From: a virus
Virus record (IMG/VR): IMGVR_UViG_3300025168_000730
Span: 1 to 22,567 of that record
Reading direction: 5' to 3' (one strand)
Length of the DNA stretch: 22,567 bases
Shown here: one piece after another, positions 1,557 to 20,249 of the stretch
How the letters are laid out: every line of letters begins with the position of its first letter
Position numbering within the stretch: position 1 is the first letter of the stretch
The notes under the pieces: model-generated
What the model saw: the letters and a program-made list of their open reading frames with translations, nothing else
The model's database searches: none
Told to the model about the DNA's origin: nothing
Translations under genes and position numbers: made by a program

Positions 1557-2525
1557 CTACTTGCCCTCCTTGCTCTCAACCGTTATTCTGTTGAAAAGTG
1601 TGAATAGATCGTTCCAGTCATAAGCACCGAAACCATCCTCAATCATCATAGCCCTAACACCAGTTTTATTAAAGGCAAGTTCTGGATTGCCTACCATTCG
1701 CCTAATGTATTGAGCGCTTTGGGCTGAGATGCAAGGCACATACAACTGCATCATCTTGTAGTTCTTTTCTATTAGTTCTCTCTTCTCGATGATATTCTTA
1801 TACACTTTGAGTTTGCTTTCAACACCTTCGGCATAGTCAACTAGGTCTTGTATTGTATACGATTTTTCATCAGAAAGGAAAGGAAATCGCTTAGATACAG
1901 TCGGCAAACCCGCTCCGCCAACACCGGGAAGGTTGTCGCTCTTGTCCCCCGCGATTGCTCTCGCAAGTGCGAAGTTTGTTGGGTGGATCTCAAACTGCTC
2001 CAAGATCCTCTTCTTGTTGAGGATTTGTTTTTGGATTGGTCTGTATAGAATAGTTGTGTCGTCGCACAACTGGATGAAGTCTTTGTCTGAACTTAGGATA
2101 ATCTTGTGGTGTTCGGACAAGGTTTGGGACTGGGAGACCAACGCGATAATGTCGTCAGCCTCCACATTCTCAACATAAGACTGCAAGATAGGCATCTCGT
2201 TTAGATACTCGATGATCCTTTCCTGTTGCCAGTTCTTATTATCCTCCTGCTCGCCAGCAGTCATATTGTGTATGTCTCGATTGAGACGCACCGGCTTCCT
2301 ACCTGCCTTGTAGTTCTTGTCCATACTCTTTCGTCTTTGAGAGCCACCGTCCCAAGCAACAAAGATTAGGTCTGGATTGATTATTCTACATACAGCTTGT
2401 AGTGATTTGATGAAACCCTTGGTGCCTCCGATTGGTTGTCCGTTAGTGGACAGGCTAGGGTCTACAATGTAATTCCTCATAAAGAGGTTTAGTGCGTCAA
2501 TTAATAATACTCTTCTATTCTTCAT
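1557..2525 (-). CDS. rnh: FEN-type 5'-3' exonuclease / RNase H-like
   Basis: The 322-residue protein has the ordered acidic motifs of the FEN/5'-3' exonuclease family: LLIDALNLFMR near the N-terminus (D10), AWDGG (D59), NYKAGRKP at 71-78, VEADDIIA at 121-128 (E122, D124, D125), SSDKDFIQL at 145-153 (D147, D149), and GDKSDNLPGVGG at 193-204 (D194, D197, then the helix-hairpin-helix-like DNA-binding turn). Family members such as T4 RNase H remove RNA primers and 5' flaps from lagging-strand fragments using two metal ions. All expected acidic residues appear to be present, so it should be active. The start overlaps the end of the small acidic gene by 11 bases, and the stop abuts the TTG start of the membrane protein, giving a tight replication operon. 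Confidence 0.9.
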   Translation of the reverse strand: MKNRRVLLIDALNLFMRNYIVDPSLSTNGQPIGGTKGFIKSLQAVCRIINPDLIFVAWDGGSQRRKSMDKNYKAGRKPVRLNRDIHNMTAGEQEDNKNWQQERIIEYLNEMPILQSYVENVEADDIIALVSQSQTLSEHHKIILSSDKDFIQLCDDTTILYRPIQKQILNKKRILEQFEIHPTNFALARAIAGDKSDNLPGVGGAGLPTVSKRFPFLSDEKSYTIQDLVDYAEGVESKLKVYKNIIEKRELIEKNYKMMQLYVPCISAQSAQYIRRMVGNPELAFNKTGVRAMMIEDGFGAYDWNDLFTLFNRITVESKEGK

Positions 2526-2807: not shown

Positions 2808-3137
2808 TTAGTGATGGTGGGAGTATTTTTTCTTTTTGTATTTCTTATACTTCTTGTACTTCTTGTACTTTTTCTTGTGCTTCTTTTTGAAATACTTCTT
2901 CTTATACTTCTTCTTGTATTTCTTATAGTGGCTATGCCCCTTGTACTTATAGAGGTGGCTATGATAGTGCTTACTGTGGGTGTGCCAGTAATAATCATAC
3001 ACAACATAGTACGAAGGGTGTACGACGTAATGATCTTCGTATTCATAGTGAGGGTTGTGGTGTTTTGTGGTAGGGTGGGCGAAAGCGCAGCCCGAGAAGA
3101 CCGATAAGAATAAAGATAGGGTGATGATTCTTTGCAT
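2808..3137 (-). CDS. secreted Lys/Tyr/His-rich low-complexity protein, unknown
   Basis: The 109-residue product begins with a clear export signal (MQRI, hydrophobic LSLFLSVFSG, then CAFA). Cleavage after AFA at residue 20 fits signal peptidase I; the FSGC at 14-17 is a poorer lipobox, so a lipoprotein is possible but less likely. Residues 21-70 are dominated by His and Tyr (for example HTHSKHYHSHLY). Residues 71-106 are almost only Lys and Tyr in KKYKKK-like repeats, and the protein ends HHH. The mature chain is therefore strongly basic and potentially metal-binding. GGAGG lies eight bases upstream of the ATG. Other frames over the repeat are open only because of its biased composition; this frame is the one with both a signal peptide and a good ribosome-binding site. 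I do not recognise the family. Confidence 0.75.
   Translation of the reverse strand: MQRIITLSLFLSVFSGCAFAHPTTKHHNPHYEYEDHYVVHPSYYVVYDYYWHTHSKHYHSHLYKYKGHSHYKKYKKKYKKKYFKKKHKKKYKKYKKYKKYKKKKYSHHH
2820..2927 (-). repeat. degenerate AAGAAGTA-type repeat coding for a Lys-Tyr tract
   Basis: On the minus strand this stretch is almost entirely AAG, AAA and TAT/TAC codons, giving repeats such as AAGAAGTAT and AAGTACAAG. It encodes residues 71-106 of the secreted protein. The irregular unit length suggests slippage growth constrained by protein composition. Confidence 0.7.
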
Positions 3138-3180: not shown

Positions 3181-4281
3181 TTATTCATCTTTTTCTTCAT
3201 AAAAGTCTTCGGCTTTGCCTAGGCGCTTGTCGAACTTCTGGATGACTTCTTCGTCCATAACATCGTAGACACGCTGTTTAAACACTGGGTCAGTCATCTT
3301 TTCATCCCACTTGGATGGCTGGAACTTTACAACTTTACCGTCGCCCATCTCCAAGGAATACCAAGCACCAGCACTACTCATATAGTTTGAGCCCTTGATA
3401 GCCTCGAACAAACTTTGATCGTCTTGGACACCGATGTCGTCGGTACCCCATAAGATTTTAAAGTTACATTGCCGACCTTGTGTTCCGAACCTGCTCTTCT
3501 CCAACTTGACCTTGACCTCGGAGCCAATACGGAAACCGCTATCGTCAAGGACGAAAGAAGCCTTAGCCTTTCTACCTGTAAGCCAGACACGCAAAGAATA
3601 TGCGTAGATCATAGCCTTACCACCGGGAGTGACATAGGGGGTAGTCATCGCCTCGCTTGGGCTTCTGGTGATGTTGCTCTTCAATTGATTGAGCACCAAG
3701 AAGGTTGATTGGCTGTTAGCAATCGGTACAGTCAGCTTGGACATACCCTTAGCCAAGATCCTCGCCTTCACTGCCATGGAAGACTGTGGATTAAAGTCTC
3801 CTTCCACGTCGGAAATAGCAGGTGTAAGAGCAAGAGAATCCCAAATGAAAAGCATACGATTTTCATTGTTAACCAATAGATCTTCGATAGTTTCCAAGAC
3901 AAACTCAACAGACTGAGCTTGAACATAAAGAATAGTTTCAACATGACACCCTGCCCTCTCCAAAAAAGTTGGATCAATGGCGGATTCAGAATCAAAATAG
4001 ATTACATCAATGCCCATCTTTTGAGCGTTAGCAGCGACCTGAGCAGCCATATAAGACTTACCAGTTGCTTCCAGACCTGCGATCTCAGTTACTTTACCGA
4101 CTGGAACACCAGCCAGTTTCCCTTTGCAAATAATAGAATCTAGCCACCTAGACCCTGTTGGAATCCAATCATTAACCTGAGTTGGATTCTCTTCATTGAG
4201 GTTATGTGCTACGGTCATCCCTGCGCGTTTGTTAATCAACTTACGCATGTCAGCCATAGACAACTTGCCTGCCTTAGCCAT
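3181..4281 (-). CDS. uvsX: UvsX/RecA-like recombinase
   Basis: The 366-residue protein has the RecA/UvsX core in order: Walker A GLEATGKS at residues 69-76, the VIYFDSESAIDP strand at 93-104, Walker B-like MLFIWDSLAL at 143-152 with D148, NQLKSNI at 198-204 in the region before loop 2, and the conserved PGGKA at 219-223. Proteins of this family form ATP-dependent filaments on single-stranded DNA, pair homologous DNA and support recombination-dependent phage replication. Length is close to T4 UvsX. The acidic C-terminus resembles that of other recombinases. AAGGAG at 4287-4292 precedes the ATG. It lies directly downstream of the gp32-like gene, its expected partner, but behind an intrinsic terminator, so it depends on read-through or on a promoter I cannot see. 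Confidence 0.92.
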   Translation of the reverse strand: MAKAGKLSMADMRKLINKRAGMTVAHNLNEENPTQVNDWIPTGSRWLDSIICKGKLAGVPVGKVTEIAGLEATGKSYMAAQVAANAQKMGIDVIYFDSESAIDPTFLERAGCHVETILYVQAQSVEFVLETIEDLLVNNENRMLFIWDSLALTPAISDVEGDFNPQSSMAVKARILAKGMSKLTVPIANSQSTFLVLNQLKSNITRSPSEAMTTPYVTPGGKAMIYAYSLRVWLTGRKAKASFVLDDSGFRIGSEVKVKLEKSRFGTQGRQCNFKILWGTDDIGVQDDQSLFEAIKGSNYMSSAGAWYSLEMGDGKVVKFQPSKWDEKMTDPVFKQRVYDVMDEEVIQKFDKRLGKAEDFYEEKDE

Positions 4282-4294
4282 TGTATCTCCTTAT

Positions 4295-4322
4295 AAAAAA
4301 GTAGGGGGGCTTGCGCCCCCCT
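4295..4322 (-). terminator. intrinsic terminator after the gp32-like gene
   Basis: On the minus strand AGGGGGGC (4322-4315) pairs perfectly with GCCCCCCT (4310-4303) across a four-base loop. After two bases a run of six T follows (4300-4295). It begins four bases after the gp32-like stop codon and ends just before the recombinase ribosome-binding site. Confidence 0.85.
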
Positions 4323-4325
4323 TGG

Positions 4326-5075
4326 TTATCCTGCCAGTTCTTTGAGAGCAGCTTCAACGTCATTGGAGGGTTCTGCTTTCCCTCCATACTTTGAAGACTC
4401 GACCGAGACCGATTCTGCATCTACCTCAGAATTGAGGAACTCATCAAGAATGCCTTGCACATCTTGAGTGGACTTACGCTCGAAAAGTGTGTCCAAGTCT
4501 GGGACAGTGGTAACAATCTCCTGACATGCTTCATCGCCATCTTCACATAGTGGGGAGGATTTACGTCGTGGCTGCACCTTCGTTTGAGGATACATCATGC
4601 CGGGAGCTTTCCCATAAGCAAGAACAAGGTCTGTTCCTTCATTTGGGTCAGTAATATCACCATAGTCTGGATTAAGAACCAGACTGAGAAGTGTTTCGTA
4701 TACGGTCTTTCCGTATCCCCACACCTTAACACCTTCAGCTTCTTGTCCACGAACGAGGACAGGAGAGAAGAAGCGCTGGCGAGCGAAGAGGGTTTTTGCC
4801 TGCGTTACACTTTCGTTAGACCCTTCGTTAAAAAGTTTCGTAGCGAAGTTGCACACAGGACAATCGTCCCCAAAGTTGCGCTTCGGACAAAGGAAGCCAG
4901 AATTGCTTCCTAGGTTGTAGTGAAAGTGATGCTCCTTGAAGGGATCCTCATCTGGTGATGGTAGGATGCGGATAACATTTTCCCCGTCCTGTGGTCGCCA
5001 GAAGTCAGACTTCTTTCCACCCTTGTTTTGAGCAGCACTAAGTTTCTGTTTCATTTTATCAAGATTAATACCCAT
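4326..5075 (-). CDS. gp32: gp32-like single-stranded DNA-binding protein
   Basis: The 249-residue protein matches the T4 gp32 layout. A short basic N-terminal segment (residues 6-22) is followed by an OB-type core carrying a zinc site: H50/H52, then C63, C72 and C75, close in spacing to the His-Cys-Cys-Cys site of T4 gp32. Aromatic and basic residues such as FWRP and RRFFSP fit the DNA cleft. The last 50 residues are acidic, as expected for the tail that recruits other replication proteins. It is shorter than T4 gp32 (301 aa). Its role would be coating single-stranded DNA in replication and recombination. The ATG has CTCCTT (AAGGAG) at 5081-5086. Its own promoter and terminator make it a one-gene unit, which suits a protein needed in large amounts. 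Confidence 0.9.
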   Translation of the reverse strand: MGINLDKMKQKLSAAQNKGGKKSDFWRPQDGENVIRILPSPDEDPFKEHHFHYNLGSNSGFLCPKRNFGDDCPVCNFATKLFNEGSNESVTQAKTLFARQRFFSPVLVRGQEAEGVKVWGYGKTVYETLLSLVLNPDYGDITDPNEGTDLVLAYGKAPGMMYPQTKVQPRRKSSPLCEDGDEACQEIVTTVPDLDTLFERKSTQDVQGILDEFLNSEVDAESVSVESSKYGGKAEPSNDVEAALKELAG

Positions 5076-5104
5076 TTTTTCTCCTTTTTAAAAATTATAC
5101 ACAC

Positions 5105-5133
5105 ATTATAAAACAACTAATATTGAAAGTCAA
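5105..5133 (-). promoter_or_regulatory. near-consensus sigma70-type promoter for the gp32-like gene
   Basis: On the minus strand TTGACT (5133-5128) is followed by exactly 17 bases and then TATAAT (5110-5105), a full -10 match. The -35 box overlaps the last bases of the upstream tubulin-like gene. It shares TCTTGACTTTC with the promoter at 2773-2801. Confidence 0.85.
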
Positions 5134-5969
5134 GAACTTTTTTCATTTTGTATCTCTGATGTGCTTTCAATGAAATAAGCGTATTTGTCTGAGTATTGAG
5201 TAGAGAACACACCGTAGGATACTTTTACTTCCTTTTCTTGTGGTGTATCTTTTACTTGGCTCATTATCTTACTCATCAAAGTTTTATCAGTTTTTAGTTC
5301 CGTTTCAGGAATAGCGTAATAATAACGCTTTTCCTTTGCGTTGTCAAGAGAAAAAAACGGACTTTCTTCGCCTGTTTCTGGATTTAAGATGCCGAAAGTT
5401 GAAATGCGGCAGATGTTTTTTGGATCGGATAGGGTTCCAACAATTGGTTTGGTATGGTTAAAGATGTTTATCATATGGATTGTTGCGGCGATAACTTCGT
5501 TTAAGCTATCGTAATAGCCCATAATAGGTGCTCCGCCTAAGATTTTATCTACCTGCTGGTTATCAATGGCGTAGAACTGCTTGAAAACACCAGATCTAGT
5601 GTATTGTTGTAGAGCACCGAAGACTACGTTGGTTTGCAATCTCCTAGTATCCGATAGTGTATCTACGTCCGGGTGAACATAGAGGATGCTTATTTCGCCC
5701 TTGCCGTGTAACTGCTCCAACACACGCAGGGCAGCGCCAGAAATAATGCTAGATCCTGCCACAATAAAAAGTATATCGCCCTCGACTTCCCTTAGTTGGT
5801 CACCTATGTCTGGAAAACTGCTTTCATACTGTTCTGGGTGGGCGCATTCTGGCACACGAATAGTTGATCCCTCTTCGTGATCGATTGTGATTACCTTGTA
5901 TTGTGGATGCTTTGCAAAGGCTTTTGTTAATTTATAGCCAGCAGACCCTAGTCCAATTAATATATCCAT
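5130..5969 (-). CDS. putative tubulin/FtsZ-superfamily-like protein, divergent
   Basis: The 279-residue protein starts with a Rossmann-like strand and glycine loop, ILIGLGSAGYKL (residues 3-14), followed by VITIDHEE (26-33), as at the FtsZ/tubulin N-terminus. At 64-85 it has GDILFIVAGSSIISGAALRV, which lines up by eye with the FtsZ FVTAGMGGGTGTGAAPVV region, though the signature is degenerate (GSSIISGAA). Next come an ISILYVHP strand, a helix and FYAIDNQQV (132-140), where FtsZ has IVIPNDRL, then a long helix and KPIVGTLSD (174-182) where FtsZ has its catalytic T7 loop. The C-terminal third is less clear. The similarity is my own pattern match, not a search result; another Rossmann-type nucleotide-binding protein is possible. 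It overlaps the polymerase gene by 13 bases, so it belongs to the replication operon. Confidence 0.6.
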   Translation of the reverse strand: MDILIGLGSAGYKLTKAFAKHPQYKVITIDHEEGSTIRVPECAHPEQYESSFPDIGDQLREVEGDILFIVAGSSIISGAALRVLEQLHGKGEISILYVHPDVDTLSDTRRLQTNVVFGALQQYTRSGVFKQFYAIDNQQVDKILGGAPIMGYYDSLNEVIAATIHMINIFNHTKPIVGTLSDPKNICRISTFGILNPETGEESPFFSLDNAKEKRYYYAIPETELKTDKTLMSKIMSQVKDTPQEKEVKVSYGVFSTQYSDKYAYFIESTSEIQNEKSS

Positions 5970-7144
5970 AAGTCTTTCATCTCTCCAAAGTTTCTTCCGC
6001 CGGATGCGTTGGTCTTGAATCGACCGAAAGGTGTGGTCATAAACTCCCAGTATACCATGTTGATAAAGTCGCCATCCTCGTCGGCATAGTCTAACACAAT
6101 ACTGTCGTGGATGATAAATGCTATCTTGGTCTTCTTTCCTTCGAGCATTTCGTTGATTGCAATTGCCCTATCCATAATCAAGTCACTACAAGTGCTTTGG
6201 ATGATGTAGTTTAGGGCATGATACTCATCAGAAGGGATGTCTCGGTGGAACATCGTTTTTACCATCCTACCGTCCCAAAACATCTCTTTGACTGCTGCCC
6301 TATCATAGAGTCTAGATAGGACCTCATCTTCGGCATTTGGGTTGTAAAGCCACGAAAAAAGTTTCTTTTTTGCTTCATCTCGTGTTACTTGCCCACCGAA
6401 CAACTCATAGGCGTTGTAATCGTGCAAATCTATGTAGGGCTGCTCTTTTCCGAGGAGACCTAGCATAACGCGAACTTCGGCTGCGTTGTAGTCTAACTCA
6501 ACAAGCCAGTCGTTGGTTGGCTTAATAATCTTTCTGAACTTCTTATCCATAGTTAGAATGGGAAAGGAATGCTTCTGGGTGGTTAGTCTGCCTGTCTTTG
6601 TGCCGAAAGGATTGTATTTGATGTAGGGCTCTGTTCTGTGTATCTTCCTGTAAAAGTCTTTTGTTCTAGGGTCTGCCAGTTCATTGTTGAGAACAGACAA
6701 ATCAATGTTTAGTTTCTGATACTTTATTTCTGTGGTTAGCTTTGTGATGTCGACCATGTTTTGGTAGTTCTCTGGTCGAGGGTAGGTGTCCAGAACGTGT
6801 CTGGTGATCTTATCTTTCATTAAGCAGAACTCTCTTAGGAAGCCCTCGGGCACAAGATCAAAGAAACAGTGGTCTTGTAGAGAAACCTTAGCGATTGCAA
6901 ATGATTTGTAGAATGCTTTGAGTTTTGACCAGATACGGTCGTAGTCTTCTTTGAGTTCTGATGGACAGACTTCCCCTAGGTCCTTGCCTTCGCAGTAGAT
7001 GTTGGCGTATTCAATCGGCAGGTCTTTTAGGAACGAAGCATACTTCCAAGTTTCGTTGCCTTCGTCTGGGAGGTCTTTGTAGATTTCTCCCTCTGAATAT
7101 ATGCCGACACACTTTTCTTTTTCATCTAACGCTTGGAATAACAA
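5957..7144 (-). CDS. polA: compact family A DNA polymerase, polymerase domain only
   Basis: The 395-residue protein carries the family A polymerase motifs: GTKTGRLTT at 181-189, motif A LVELDYNAAEVRVML (214-228, catalytic D218), motif B R255-x3-K259-x3-F263-x3-Y267 with exact O-helix spacing, QSTCSDLIMDRA at 316-327, and motif C IIHDSIVLDY at 344-353 (catalytic D347). The usual HDE of motif C is HDS here. No 3'-5' exonuclease domain is present, and the N-terminal 150 residues are only partly recognisable as a short thumb. Family members are typically 550-900 residues, so a proofreading subunit may be encoded elsewhere. The start is TTG at 7142-7144 with AAGG six bases upstream; no upstream ATG lies before the in-frame stop. 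It follows the tail genes with a ten-base gap. Confidence 0.9.
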   Translation of the reverse strand: MLFQALDEKEKCVGIYSEGEIYKDLPDEGNETWKYASFLKDLPIEYANIYCEGKDLGEVCPSELKEDYDRIWSKLKAFYKSFAIAKVSLQDHCFFDLVPEGFLREFCLMKDKITRHVLDTYPRPENYQNMVDITKLTTEIKYQKLNIDLSVLNNELADPRTKDFYRKIHRTEPYIKYNPFGTKTGRLTTQKHSFPILTMDKKFRKIIKPTNDWLVELDYNAAEVRVMLGLLGKEQPYIDLHDYNAYELFGGQVTRDEAKKKLFSWLYNPNAEDEVLSRLYDRAAVKEMFWDGRMVKTMFHRDIPSDEYHALNYIIQSTCSDLIMDRAIAINEMLEGKKTKIAFIIHDSIVLDYADEDGDFINMVYWEFMTTPFGRFKTNASGGRNFGEMKDLWIY

Positions 7145-7154
7145 TGCTGACCTT

Positions 7155-8696
7155 CTAGTAATATTGTTTCAGGTATTGGTTAATATACTCTAAAGCGGAG
7201 GATTTGTCAACAGAATAATACAATTGATTAATATCTGACATTACTTTGTCCAACCTTTTATCCAGTTTGCCTTTGCCGTTGGTCTTTTCTTTTATTCTAA
7301 TTATCAAATAAGTTTTCATCCAGAAAAGATCGTTGTATTGCAGATTGAACTTTTCTTCAGTTATAGCGTCTCTTCTGATTTTTCTTACTACTGTCTTGGA
7401 CTTTGAAGAGTTATCCCTATATTGACCGGGACCCGGACTCTTAGGTAGACATAATTCGGGAGATTTAGTATACGGGAATTGTCTTACATAGTCAAAATAA
7501 AAATTCTTAAACTTGTCTCTCAGCAGGGTCACATCTGTTTCATATGATTTGTTGTAAAATCCATCATATACGTCGTGCAGAGTAAAATTTTTGATATACT
7601 TCTTAGCTGGACCGAGACTGTGGATGTGCGCGTGGAGGGGATTGGCACCATAGACTGCCCTCACAAGTACGTTTCCCTTTTCTATTGTATGCTGGTGTTC
7701 AGGCACATGGGCGAAGTTTGCTAAATTGCCTGTTTGTTTTGCTGGTCCGGTTGCACCGTTTCCATTTTCGTCAACGCTGAAGTCATGGGAGTGGTTAAGG
7801 ACTGCTCCTGTAAAACTCTCCTTCTCAATAGTAAAGAAATACTTTTGCATATATTCTTTCATTTTTGATGAATTTAGATTGGCGACAAGCCTCCAAGGGG
7901 CATTCTTATCAACAAAGAAGCCGAACTTTGCAGCCGCCAGTGTGTAAAATTCAAAATTAATATTGTTTATGTATTTATTAAACTTATTGTAATCATCATC
8001 GTGATTATCAAAAGACATCTCGACGCACAGACCACTTACATTTGGGCTAGTTCTTATAGACTCCAAGACGCCCGTCTTAGTAATTGGAAAGTCAAGCATC
8101 ATCTCGGGGGCATATAGATTTAAAAACACATCAAGAAAGCTTTCAAAGTCTCTTATCTGCTTGTCTAGCTTAGTTTTTGGCAAGAAGACCGTAACAAAAT
8201 TATTATAATACTGCGTCGTAATTCTATCATATAGATTGTCTACGTCAAACCATCCCTTTTTAGCCTGTATATTTTTAGTTAAAAAATTATCTGGGTGTAG
8301 TCTATTGGCTCTTTGGGTTTTGATAAACTTAACAAAGTCTTCAAATGCGTCGGCAACAAAGTTCATTACAAAGACAGTCTCTTCTTCGGTTTTGATTTGC
8401 TTTAAAGACTCATTGTTCGGCACTATATAGTCTCTATTGAGATCCAGCTTGCCATAGTTTGCATACTTGGAAGACCAAAAATTGATTGGGTCGGGGGTTT
8501 CCATATTGTCAAGTTCGTCATCAGGCACCACAAAGCTATCATAGATATTTCTTGTCTTCGATGTGACCCTCTCTGGGTCATCATACGTTATATTATCTGG
8601 GTATGAATTCTGATACTTAACCCTCTCCTTGAAGAGATCTTTGGCTCCAAGCTTGTTGCTTCCATATACATCAATGTTAAAAACTTTTGTGGTCAT
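7155..8696 (-). CDS. probable virion protein with HxH motifs, unknown
   Basis: The 513-residue protein follows the 894-aa hub-region protein at 12 bases and is the last gene of the tail block, so a structural or tail-assembly role is inferred from position. I do not recognise the family. Residues 1-290 are a mixed fold with many Asp, Asn, Tyr and Phe. Residues 297-360 are glycine- and histidine-rich with HSH (302-304), HQH (334-336) and HAHIH (355-359), a pattern seen in metal-binding phage fibre and spike tips. After that comes a basic, Tyr-rich C-terminal region. No signal peptide or membrane helix is seen. The start ATG is preceded by a G-rich stretch rather than a clean ribosome-binding site, so translation may be coupled to the upstream gene. 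Confidence 0.75.
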   Translation of the reverse strand: MTTKVFNIDVYGSNKLGAKDLFKERVKYQNSYPDNITYDDPERVTSKTRNIYDSFVVPDDELDNMETPDPINFWSSKYANYGKLDLNRDYIVPNNESLKQIKTEEETVFVMNFVADAFEDFVKFIKTQRANRLHPDNFLTKNIQAKKGWFDVDNLYDRITTQYYNNFVTVFLPKTKLDKQIRDFESFLDVFLNLYAPEMMLDFPITKTGVLESIRTSPNVSGLCVEMSFDNHDDDYNKFNKYINNINFEFYTLAAAKFGFFVDKNAPWRLVANLNSSKMKEYMQKYFFTIEKESFTGAVLNHSHDFSVDENGNGATGPAKQTGNLANFAHVPEHQHTIEKGNVLVRAVYGANPLHAHIHSLGPAKKYIKNFTLHDVYDGFYNKSYETDVTLLRDKFKNFYFDYVRQFPYTKSPELCLPKSPGPGQYRDNSSKSKTVVRKIRRDAITEEKFNLQYNDLFWMKTYLIIRIKEKTNGKGKLDKRLDKVMSDINQLYYSVDKSSALEYINQYLKQYY

Positions 8697-17180: not shown

Positions 17181-20100
17181 TTAATCCTCAAAACCTGCAC
17201 CAGAGTTTGTGATTACAAAATCAATAGCGAAGAACTCGACAGCCTTAGTTGGCTTTAAGAAGATCTTTGCGTAGATTGTATTTCTATCAATCAAGTCTGG
17301 CGTAGTTGTTGTCTCATCCAAGACGACTTTGAAATCATCCAACCCAAAGTTGTTCTTAATATTGTCCAAGAATGGAGCAACCTGACCTGTAAATCTAGAC
17401 CAAGTTTGTTCAACATTCTGATCAAATAACAAGTTTGATGCAATTCTTGAGATTTCTTTCTTTACAAAGATCATCAACCTTCTAACGTTGATTCTATCCA
17501 ACGCAGATGGGGTGATTTGTAGAGTCTTCTGTCCGAAGATTACAATGCCCTCGTTTGGAAATGATGCGATAGGGTTGAGGTTTCTTTCGTAGAGATAATC
17601 TCTTTCGGCAGAAGTTAGACGGCTTCTAACGTTGGTCACTGGAATACCAGCGGCACCCTCTGTCAAGCCCCCTCTATTGAAGCCTGCTGGAGCGAACCAA
17701 AGCGCTGCTTTGTTCTCTGCAAAAGACATAGCTCCGAATGCTGCAATTGAAGGAGGTGCCCAAAGTTGGCGACCCGTGATTGTGTCAGAAATTCTAACCC
17801 AAGGGTAATATGCCGCACCATAACTTGTGTTAAGATTTCTAGCATCCAAGTTATCTGCCACCTCTTTAACGTGGCGTGAAACTCCACCTAATCCAGTGCC
17901 GGTTGTAATTCTCTGCTGCTCGGACTCATTGTTCTCAGAAGCTGGTATGTACCCGCCGCGAGGATCGATCAGAGCCAAGGCATCTCCACGAGATTCACAA
18001 GTCTGAAGCATATGGGTTGTTAGCCCTTCGTTTGTGATACCGGGAGCAGTCAAGATATTAGCTTCAACAAACTCTGGATCTGCGAACATATCGATTGCTT
18101 TCTTCACAGAATAGAACATAGAGTACGTTGTTGGGGCTGCGGTAGCGTGTGTCAAAGCTCTAGCGGCATTGAAAGGTTCTTTTTCTGTAATATCAAATCC
18201 ATCGAAACCACCGTACATTGGGGCTGTGAATCTGTCATATCCTTTATCAAGAACTGATTTATAAGAGCCAGTTCTAGCCGAAATCGAGTCACCTGTAGCT
18301 CTAGATCCTGAATCGTAATATACTTGAGGAATAGTTCCGCCCGGTGCCATTACCAAATCATCCAAGCTGAAGTACCAAGATGTCTTGGTTCCTGTATCTG
18401 GAGATCCACTGAACTTATTTGCCACAGGAAGTGGGTAAAGGAGGTCGTATGTGCCCTCATCGAAGGTTGAACCTCCCGCTGTTCTTGTGAACTGTGCTCC
18501 AAAGTAAGCTTCTGTCTCATCGGAAAGATCTCCAGCAGAAGCGCTCCTTCTAAGTGGTACTGTTGGAAAGTTCACTGAGCCGGTGAATGGGAATTTACCC
18601 GCTACATCTCCCAGTTCGGCGTCAACACCAATTCTTACTTCATCAGATAACGCAACGAAACCAACGCTGCGAATGTGTAATGGAATTTGAAGACCAGCCT
18701 CTACACACGCTTTCAATCCGCCAGCGGGAGCGATGCTTCCTGTGCCTTGGTTAGCAGCATTGTAGTCGGAGGAACCAGAAATCTGGAAGCTGGTATATCC
18801 GATTGGTCCTTCGACACCGAATGGAATAAGCTCTGGATCTGCCTGTGCTTGGTCAATTGCATTTGCAACTTCGACACGAACGATACTTGAACGATTTGGA
18901 TAACTTCCGTATTCGAACAAACGACGTGCGTTAGTATCCCACTGGTGGTATCTATCACCAATTTGCTTGGAGATGTAATTCGCTGAGTTTGGGTCTAAAC
19001 TAAGATTAGTAAACTTCTCAACGTATTTTTTTGCATTGTCAAGATCTTTAATATCGCGGATTGCAATGCTGAAAGATCCGTAAGGGGTGTTATCATTTTT
19101 GCTGTATTTGATATCTTCAACAGAAATCTTGTAGTTTCTGTGAATTTCTTGACCAGATGTTAATCCGTGGAATTTAAACAATCTTGTGACTGTTGCAAGG
19201 TTCTCTGGATTGAATGGCGGGTCGAGTGTGTTCCCGGCTAGTTCGTGGGTTCCTGCCGTGTTTCTCAAATCCTGCGAGAAAAACCAACCAGACTGCGCTG
19301 CTTGTGTAGCAAATTTGAAATTGCTACCATCAGTAACATCCATTCCGGCTCTTCCCAACCTAAGTATAACCCCATATGAGTTGGAGCCTGTGATAGTATC
19401 AGCTACTGCTCTTTCATAAGTTTGACCAAGGAAGAAATTCTTCTTTTTAGCCGAGGTGGTATCAACAAGGGCACTATTTGTCAAAGTTGGATTAGTGTTG
19501 AGAACCTTTCTGATGTAATTAGAATCAGTTCTGGAAAAGCTGATTGTCGTTTCTTCCGTTAGGGTTCCGGCTCCATCTGTTATATCGTATGCGCCGATGG
19601 TGTAAGTATACTTGCCAACTGAATTGATCAAAGCACTAGATCCCGTTGTGGATCCCATGTTTTGATTATCGAATTCTTTCGTCGTATCAAATCCACGAAT
19701 TGTACCCGACAGCGTAAGCATCGAGCCGGTTGTGTAAAGAACTGCTGCCAATGTACCCGTTGTTGACTTTTCATCCCCGCCGTCTACTACCTGAACGGCT
19801 CCAGAGTTGAACAAGAACAAACCATAAGCCCCGCCACCCATTTGATCTTGCGCCAAGGCTGGAGAAGATGGTCCGGGGAATGCTAAATTCCAACCGGCTT
19901 TTCCGTCCTGTGTGTCAGCGTTGTCTGGATGCTGGTCGCCAAGTAGTCTTATGAATGTCAAAGGAGTGCTATTCTTAAGCCATGCTTGAGCGGCGTAGGC
20001 AGCAAATGTCGGTGCCGTAGGTATTCCTCCACGCCAAAGGTCGCTTTTCTCTTCGCCCCCTACTGGATCTCCAAAGATTGTTACGAACTCTGAGAAGGAA

Positions 20101-20249
20101 TCAACTCTAACAGGTTGGAAAGCGGGTCCTCTTCTAGTACGCCCAATAACCAATGGTCCAATTGCCACTGGTGACTTGGGGACTTGGGAGTTGTCGATCT
20201 CTTCGATGAACACTCCGGGGGAAACAAATTTGAAATCTTTTGCCGACAT
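17181..20249 (-). CDS. gp18: tail sheath protein (gp18-like), enlarged
   Basis: The N-terminus SPGVFIEEIDNSQVPKSPVA to GPLVIGRTRRGPAFQPV is the typical start of contractile sheath proteins. The last 170 residues carry the conserved sheath core: LTSAERDYLYERNLNPIASF, IVIFGQKTLQITPSALDRINVRRL and AKIFLKPTKAVEFFAIDF. At 1022 residues it is far longer than T4 gp18 (659). The extra length lies in the central region, about residues 130-700, rich in Gly, Ser and Thr and likely surface-exposed beta domains. The sheath surrounds the tube and contracts on infection. AAGGAG lies eight bases before the ATG at 20247-20249. It is preceded by an 84-base gap that should hold its promoter. Confidence 0.93.
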   Translation of the reverse strand: MSAKDFKFVSPGVFIEEIDNSQVPKSPVAIGPLVIGRTRRGPAFQPVRVDSFSEFVTIFGDPVGGEEKSDLWRGGIPTAPTFAAYAAQAWLKNSTPLTFIRLLGDQHPDNADTQDGKAGWNLAFPGPSSPALAQDQMGGGAYGLFLFNSGAVQVVDGGDEKSTTGTLAAVLYTTGSMLTLSGTIRGFDTTKEFDNQNMGSTTGSSALINSVGKYTYTIGAYDITDGAGTLTEETTISFSRTDSNYIRKVLNTNPTLTNSALVDTTSAKKKNFFLGQTYERAVADTITGSNSYGVILRLGRAGMDVTDGSNFKFATQAAQSGWFFSQDLRNTAGTHELAGNTLDPPFNPENLATVTRLFKFHGLTSGQEIHRNYKISVEDIKYSKNDNTPYGSFSIAIRDIKDLDNAKKYVEKFTNLSLDPNSANYISKQIGDRYHQWDTNARRLFEYGSYPNRSSIVRVEVANAIDQAQADPELIPFGVEGPIGYTSFQISGSSDYNAANQGTGSIAPAGGLKACVEAGLQIPLHIRSVGFVALSDEVRIGVDAELGDVAGKFPFTGSVNFPTVPLRRSASAGDLSDETEAYFGAQFTRTAGGSTFDEGTYDLLYPLPVANKFSGSPDTGTKTSWYFSLDDLVMAPGGTIPQVYYDSGSRATGDSISARTGSYKSVLDKGYDRFTAPMYGGFDGFDITEKEPFNAARALTHATAAPTTYSMFYSVKKAIDMFADPEFVEANILTAPGITNEGLTTHMLQTCESRGDALALIDPRGGYIPASENNESEQQRITTGTGLGGVSRHVKEVADNLDARNLNTSYGAAYYPWVRISDTITGRQLWAPPSIAAFGAMSFAENKAALWFAPAGFNRGGLTEGAAGIPVTNVRSRLTSAERDYLYERNLNPIASFPNEGIVIFGQKTLQITPSALDRINVRRLMIFVKKEISRIASNLLFDQNVEQTWSRFTGQVAPFLDNIKNNFGLDDFKVVLDETTTTPDLIDRNTIYAKIFLKPTKAVEFFAIDFVITNSGAGFED

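Follow-up and report, generated by a model that had tools for sequence, protein, structure and literature searches.

A highly diverged family of predicted tubulin/FtsZ-like proteins in the replication module of T4-like phages

The gene and its place in the replication module

The DNA analysed here, a virus record of 22,567 bases, is referred to as the window. Its minus strand carries a gene for a protein of 279 residues, TUB, next to genes of DNA replication (Table 1). The original prediction, which read the product as tubulin/FtsZ-like from the sequence, had set an ORF at positions 5130–5969, between the phage polymerase and the single-stranded-DNA-binding protein and overlapping polA. The ORF occupies exactly these positions; polA shares 13 nt with its start (5957–5969), and gp32 begins 54 nt past its end. 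The motifs that the prediction had named are all present in the translation, i.e., GLGSAG at residues 6–11, AGSSIISGAA at 71–80, FYAIDNQQV at 132–140, and KPIVGTLSD at 174–182. The plus strand at 5130–5969 has many stops in the frame examined. From the gene overlap, we infer that TUB is co-expressed with polA.

Table 1. Positions in the window of the TUB gene, its sites, and neighbouring replication genes
Feature	Positions	Strand	Remarks
TUB, tubulin/FtsZ-superfamily protein (predicted), 279 aa	5130..5969	−	ATG start, TGA stop included; fold and profile evidence
T1 loop GLGSAG, residues 6–11	5937..5954	−	position computed from ORF start
T4 signature-loop position, AGSSIISGAA, residues 71–80	5730..5759	−	without GGGTG(S/T)G
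Asn137 codon (T6/H6)	5559..5561	−	N in 83/84; pairs with invariant FtsZ N165
Asn157 codon (start of H7)	5499..5501	−	N in 83/84; aligned to FtsZ H7 Asp/Asn column
T7–H8 region, residues 172–188	5406..5456	−	no helix predicted; no near-invariant acid
Family-A DNA polymerase (polA), 395 aa	5957..7144	−	Pfam DNA_pol_A 4.7e-13
gp32-like single-stranded-DNA-binding protein	4326..5075	−	match 1.3e-17
UvsX/RecA-like recombinase	3181..4281	−	match 6.6e-34
5′-3′ exonuclease, same module	1557..2525	−	match 6.3e-27

Farther upstream of polA lie baseplate-hub and tail-sheath genes. The tail sheath protein is very large, at 1022 residues (17181–20249, minus strand), with Pfam sheath domains on residues 718–1014 and the PHROG sheath match on 441–1020. 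Between the exonuclease and UvsX genes is a 109-aa ORF (2808–3137, minus strand) with a signal-like start, an extreme abundance of His, Lys, and Tyr in its tail, and a Pfam match below the cut-off only.

Relatives of TUB are numerous in IMG/VR. The first of three scans confirmed 36, the second, by profile, 382, and the third, from the diverged side, at least 598, where confirmation means a tblastn E ≤1e-3 among candidates and the three counts overlap; the best 80 of the 382 and the best 80 of the last scan were taken further. The fetched loci hold 165 family matches and 140 distinct sequences. A search of 84,980 prokaryote genomes gave a single relative (L091, 5001–5834), in a record titled as the chromosome of a candidate division WOR-3 MAG (2.85 Mb); it may be a provirus, a host clue, or a mis-binned phage. 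Because the 165 loci carry 140 distinct sequences, and because near relatives give dN/dS values of 0.05–0.13 where computable, TUB is a real gene, and one that, judging from these alignments, is under strong purifying selection. Among near relatives, TUB diverges more than gp32 and UvsX (91% versus 98–99% in L001), with dS raised too. Positive selection was considered and rejected, given the raised dS and low dN/dS; recombination or faster change is more likely than adaptation. In a second relative (L002), gp32 and UvsX are 98–99% identical to those of the window, TUB 91%, and polA 73%, a sign of recombination within the replication module.

The gene order was followed in two sets of loci. The first, selected by TUB, comprises 163 plus-strand family loci, redundant contigs included, with gaps that are approximate since they are taken from BLAST ends. 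polA lies upstream in 138 of the 143 loci with more than 700 bp upstream, the other 5 having none in view. The polA–TUB gap is about −13 to +42 nt in 109 of the 138 and 0.3–2.6 kb (>300 nt) in 29. gp32 follows downstream, within about 0.7 kb, in 142/142 loci with more than 1 kb on that side. The second set, the best 80 of 541 confirmed loci selected by UvsX, was meant to reduce the bias that comes with selection by TUB, although the UvsX alignment derives from TUB loci and some contigs recur. TUB is found in 55 of the 58 loci in which more than 1 kb precedes gp32; the rest of the 80 comprise 6 with TUB in less room, 15 with no room and no TUB, and 1 without gp32. The order polA–TUB–gp32 is constant in the 50 UvsX-selected loci with all three in view. 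In some loci, further genes separate TUB from gp32 or polA from TUB, and in L307 about 1.5 kb lies between TUB and gp32.

In the three loci where TUB is not in view (L287, L312, and L329), different ORFs precede gp32 and polA is not in view either; TUB may have been displaced or lost there. Read by eye, L312 has a DPPY methyltransferase-like ORF before gp32 (564–1538), and L329 has a DnaK-like ORF directly past UvsX (3344–4270). In one record, an open frame of 572 aa runs from TUB into gp32 across a TAG. A read-through fusion was considered and rejected: the frames of TUB relative to gp32 are even (54, 50, and 48) and further stops occur in most same-frame spacers, which makes the open frame a matter of chance. 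To summarize, in a phage lineage with gp23-type capsids, TUB is an almost constant component of the replication module.

Predicted fold and profile likeness

The AlphaFold2 model of the window TUB, built from a 43-sequence alignment, has a pLDDT of 90.8 and a pTM of 0.90. Against the PDB, Foldseek gave a best E of 2.0e-11 at probability 1.00, and all 50 matches listed are FtsZ, TubZ, or tubulin/microtubule entries. With VIA-align, where Z values within 1 of each other are treated as tied, the model scored Z 24.4 to CetZ 3zid_B (256 residues, 3.0 Å), 23.0 to TubZ 4ei7_B (275 residues, 3.4 Å), 22.0 to Aquifex FtsZ, and 21.6 to tubulin 3jak_B. A second family member (L034), 38% identical, was modelled from 20 sequences with a pLDDT of 92.4 and scored Z 25.0 to CetZ and 24.2 to TubZ. 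Both models have the N-terminal nucleotide-binding domain, the long helix H7, and the C-terminal domain, and the window TUB ends nine residues past its last strand. TUB is only 10–18% identical to the FtsZ and tubulin chains that the fold searches list. Among predicted viral structures, 9 matched at E ≤0.001; the best is a phage FtsZ, the PhuZ of Noxifer is included, and one row is named as an unrelated enzyme. Since none of the 9 exceeds 13% identity, this library seems to lack a close TUB member.

A structure prediction followed by a fold search was the check suggested with the original prediction, and its reading of the fold is borne out: the model is confident, FtsZ, TubZ, CetZ, and tubulin are the top listed matches with the C-terminal domain aligned, and the second member agrees. 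The fold searches also bear on another reading, namely that TUB is a nucleotide-binding Rossmann protein of a different family, of the TrkA-N or dehydrogenase kind, with a superficial likeness to FtsZ. Weak Pfam TrkA_N matches do occur in 14/84 members at E ≤0.1 (best 0.00097 among the 25 of 37 families listed), and the window TUB has one below the cut-off at residues 3–33. Against this, all 50 rows listed for each model in VIA-align are FtsZ, TubZ, CetZ, or tubulin/microtubule entries, aligned over 256–284 residues at Z 21–25 with the C-terminal domain included; no TrkA-N or dehydrogenase fold is among the 50 rows listed per search. On these listed rows, the Rossmann reading is rejected on fold as highly improbable.

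Profile comparison gives likeness to the same superfamily. With family alignment A2, hhalign scored 36.5 against FtsZ (E about 3.5e-4) and 46.0 against PhuZ (E about 1.1e-5), where the maxima for shuffled profiles were 23.1 and 24.8, respectively. The real score was reached by 0/60 shuffles in each of four comparisons, and reversed profiles also fell below it (A2 and A5). Because the real scores exceed all shuffled controls, the likeness of TUB to FtsZ is beyond chance. The wider alignment A6 gave a weaker FtsZ match (E 0.005), the shuffle controls covering A2 and A5. The TUB–FtsZ alignment is collinear over 238 columns, at a probability of 37% at best, and the TUB–PhuZ alignment spans columns 4–101. 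hhalign pairs GLG with the FtsZ T1 loop, AGSSIISGAA with the signature loop, IDN with IPN, and the KPIVG stretch with the T7 stretch, and thus reproduces the motif assignments made at the outset.

Ordinary searches pass over the family. Sequence searches of the PDB yielded no useful match with the window TUB, A1, A6, or a short consensus (best E 1.2). The window TUB has 0 matches at E ≤0.1 in 50,697 named phage records; tblastn against named phages gave no match with the window TUB or L053 and one, at E 0.7, with L036. Pfam Tubulin matches 7/84 members at E ≤0.1 (best 0.0064 among the 25 of 37 families listed) and 0/7 records at E ≤0.001, where 13/14 control genomes are positive. NCBIfam, searched with 6 members, gave a best E of 0.0072, with ftsZ matching over the T6–H7 stretch in L034 (E 0.093) and L053 (E 0.29). 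Of the 84 members compared with PHROGs, 3 match an unnamed family (best E 2.7e-4). There is no convincing Pfam, PHROG, or NCBIfam assignment, and TUB is an example of how part of the tubulin superfamily can escape sequence models.

Taken together, the predicted fold, the profile likeness, and the conservation show that TUB forms a new and highly diverged family within the tubulin/FtsZ superfamily, a membership that we hold with very high confidence on models and alignments. That is, the fold is near certain, and the mechanism considered next is what we infer.

The nucleotide site and the T7–H8 region

Conservation was counted over 84 family members. In the T1 loop, G6, G8, and G11 are each present in 84/84, A10 in 79, C12 in 78, and N13 in 57. 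Elsewhere D30, N137, and N157 are each conserved in 83/84. hhalign pairs N137 with FtsZ N165, which is invariant in a nine-sequence FtsZ set, and N157 with the Asp/Asn column in H7. In FtsZ and tubulin, the counterparts of these two asparagines presumably make contact with guanine. Most of the family seems to have retained base recognition, as far as alignments and models can tell. The window TUB and its nearest relatives have Tyr12-Lys13 instead of Cys12-Asn13, so that their site appears still more degenerate than that of the rest of the family; with this substitution, their nucleotide site may be dead.

Passages of PMC2875224 define the signature loop of tubulin/FtsZ GTPases as GGGTG(S/T)G. 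This motif is found in 0/84 TUB members, where the corresponding pattern, about G-[SA]-G-x-[IV]-S-G-A, is itself conserved (S77 in 77/84 and L81 in 84/84). As a control, the strict motif occurs in 8/9 FtsZ and 0/8 PhuZ sequences. Since PhuZ likewise lacks it, its absence is weak evidence on hydrolysis and does not exclude a working tubulin.

In tubulins, the T7–H8 segment completes the active site of the next subunit. The corresponding part of TUB, residues 172–188 between H7 and strand S7, has no helix in the window model, nor has the matching stretch of L034. Columns 172–188 hold no near-invariant acid, being acidic in at most 50/84 members. D209 is invariant in the nine-sequence FtsZ set, as are D201 and D204 in an eight-sequence PhuZ set; their placement at T7 is read by eye. 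The original prediction rightly called the GTP signature degenerate, and TUB likewise has neither a conserved T7 acid nor, in the two models, helix H8. Judging from the sequences and models, assembly-coupled hydrolysis looks lost.

We propose that TUB probably still binds guanine nucleotide, using its T1 loop together with the conserved T6 and H7 asparagines, and probably does not hydrolyse it canonically. The case for non-canonical or absent hydrolysis comes mainly from the T7–H8 region, since it lacks the conserved acid and the helix; the altered signature loop adds weakly to it. A non-canonical nucleotide cycle is, on these sequence and model features, somewhat favoured. Assembly, if any, would use non-canonical contacts, and TUB could act as a scaffold, a monomer, or a dimer.

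The same features can be read otherwise. TUB could be a working cytomotive filament of the PhuZ/TubZ type, which polymerises with GTP and places replicating DNA or capsids, its divergent T4 and T7 loops being sufficient. The models contain the complete tubulin fold, C-terminal domain included, PhuZ gives the best profile score, and PhuZ too does without the strict signature motif. Accounts of PhuZ behaviour, as given in parts of the cited papers, fit such a filament: PhuZ positions DNA at mid-cell (PMC4244570), and the phiKZ TubZ/PhuZ forms protofilaments (PMC3678025). Residues 172–188, with no column acidic in more than 50/84 members and no helix in either model, speak against it when set beside the invariant acids of FtsZ and PhuZ, as do the immediate neighbours, polA and gp32, and the chimallin result given below. 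We consider the filament rather unlikely.

A third reading starts from the assembly faces, one of which seems kept and the other altered: TUB would be a decoy that binds host FtsZ by the kept nucleotide face, caps its filaments for want of the T7–H8 face, and stops division. Several phages block FtsZ early in infection. The low identity to the listed FtsZ and tubulin chains, the strong purifying selection, and the location of TUB in a replication module all weigh against a decoy, which appears improbable.

Polymerase content, proposed role, and known systems

Gene content was compared in ten contigs of 155–193 kb, the completeness of which is unknown, so that absences from them are provisional. 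TUB is present in 10/10 (once each in seven; also in L279, L284, and L307), as is a gp23-type capsid protein. The gp23 matches in G002, G003, and G008–G015 fall in two separated stretches within frames of about 585–691 aa, as if the capsid protein, by its sequence, carried a large insertion. A family-A polymerase match is found in 10/10, above the cut-off in 8. Family-B polymerase and the gp45 clamp are each found in 0/10 of these contigs of unknown completeness, with T4 as a positive control for both. The family-A enzyme is the sole DNA polymerase recognised in this lineage. The bacterial viruses that carry TUB form a large, uncultured T4-like group.

The best named match to UvsX is that of Microcystis phage Mel-JY01, at 32%. 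Its gene order is a PolA-like ORF, three other ORFs, gp32, UvsX, and exonuclease, and a search of the record with the TUB family profile gives no TUB match; there is no gp45 match either. The PolA-like ORF is a diverged PolA homologue by family profile (E 3.6e-15). As this TUB-less phage has it at the equivalent place, a PolA homologue does not demand TUB. A hidden tubulin in Mel-JY01 was considered and rejected: the 428-aa ORF before gp32 is S-AdoMet-lyase-like and aligns poorly with the TUB family. A sister set was formed from Mel-JY01 and the best 80 of 128 confirmed IMG/VR loci chosen by its UvsX. None of the 81 loci has a TUB-profile match at E ≤10, the polA–gp32 interval being in view in 21. 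Family-B polymerase is found in 8/9 sister records and a family-A Pfam match in 0/7. TUB-less sisters have other ORFs between the PolA-like gene and gp32 (L183 6714–8000; L227, L244, L263, L210, and others), among them the S-AdoMet-lyase-like ORF of Mel-JY01 and a recurring pair of about 500–710 and 130–140 aa. In Rhodothermus phage RM378, considered as a possible relative, the whole record has no TUB, and the first 50 kb has no profile match to TUB, polA, gp32, or UvsX, only to the exonuclease.

Over 60 non-redundant loci, TUB divergence correlates with that of polA (r 0.72, partial r 0.52), gp32 (r 0.62, partial 0.28), and UvsX (r 0.52, partial 0.20); linkage alone could explain the correlation with polA. 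TUB goes with reliance on PolA, as an association without a shown cause.

The gene neighbourhood, although it does not prove it, makes a role in replication reasonably likely. We suggest that TUB serves the PolA replisome as a nucleotide-gated accessory or scaffold and would be made by coupled translation right behind the polymerase. The full proposal, a superfamily member repurposed as a GTP-binding, hydrolysis-impaired replication accessory in a lineage where the family-A enzyme is the sole DNA polymerase recognised, is tentative, with a chance that we put slightly below even. A more specific version makes TUB a dedicated partner of the family-A polymerase in this T4-like lineage, one that replaces the missing sliding clamp or tethers the replisome; this we think unlikely. 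The findings suggest a tubulin fold drafted into viral DNA replication. If TUB does act in replication, the fold would have a function beyond filament dynamics and might help explain replication without a recognised T4-type clamp. If it is a polymerase partner, then a relative of tubulin, the microtubule protein, would serve DNA synthesis directly rather than moving or dividing things.

No description of the family was found among the openly licensed PMC papers listed, preprints aside, and the searched text of the Far-T4 paper (PMC4360716) yields no mention of tubulin, FtsZ, UvsX, or gp32. Parts of the literature report two FtsZ/tubulin representatives in jumbo phages (PMC7824862) and, as phage members of the superfamily, PhuZ and TubZ.

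The comparison with known systems is as follows. PhuZ (phiKZ PHIKZ039 and relatives, from nucleus-forming jumbo phages) resembles TUB in being phage-encoded, in its tubulin/FtsZ fold, and in its size. It keeps the invariant D201 and D204, whereas TUB lacks a conserved T7 acid and H8. In phiKZ, 14 annotated genes (about 7.7 kb) separate PhuZ from the DNA polymerase gene, whereas TUB lies between polA and gp32. PhuZ phages have chimallin; a BLAST search with the phiKZ shell protein PHIKZ054 matched 0/10 TUB contigs and was positive for phiKZ, although a diverged shell protein would escape it. TubZ/RepX, of plasmids and phages with type III partition, shares the fold with TUB (Z 23.0 over 275 residues, 4ei7_B). 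TubZ works with TubR and a centromere, whereas the window neighbours of TUB are polA and gp32; the stretch searched for repeats, 4000–7400, has no repeat array, just four two-copy direct repeats. Archaeal CetZ gives the best Z for both models, with near rows tied, at 13–17% identity. CetZ proteins shape archaeal cells and have intact GTPase motifs. FtsZ has in common with TUB the 238-column collinear alignment and the invariant T6 Asn, but differs in its signature motif (8/9 versus 0/84), its conserved T7 acid, and its H8.

FtsZl1 and FtsZl2, according to passages of Makarova and Koonin (2010, PMC2875224), were found by remote similarity and are structurally diverged; T6–H7 elements are not identifiable in FtsZl1, and both keep GGGTG and carry long extra regions. 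As far as those passages go, TUB is the reverse, with T6–H7 kept, the signature lost, and minimal length. TUB is homologous to the superfamily, yet it lacks hallmarks of canonical tubulin GTPases and stands outside FtsZ, TubZ, PhuZ, and CetZ; its loop for coupling assembly to hydrolysis is without its conserved acid. So far, phage tubulins have been known in two settings, nucleus-forming jumbo phages and partition systems. TUB adds a third setting, that of a large, unannotated family in phages with T4-type capsids, tied to the polymerase gene.
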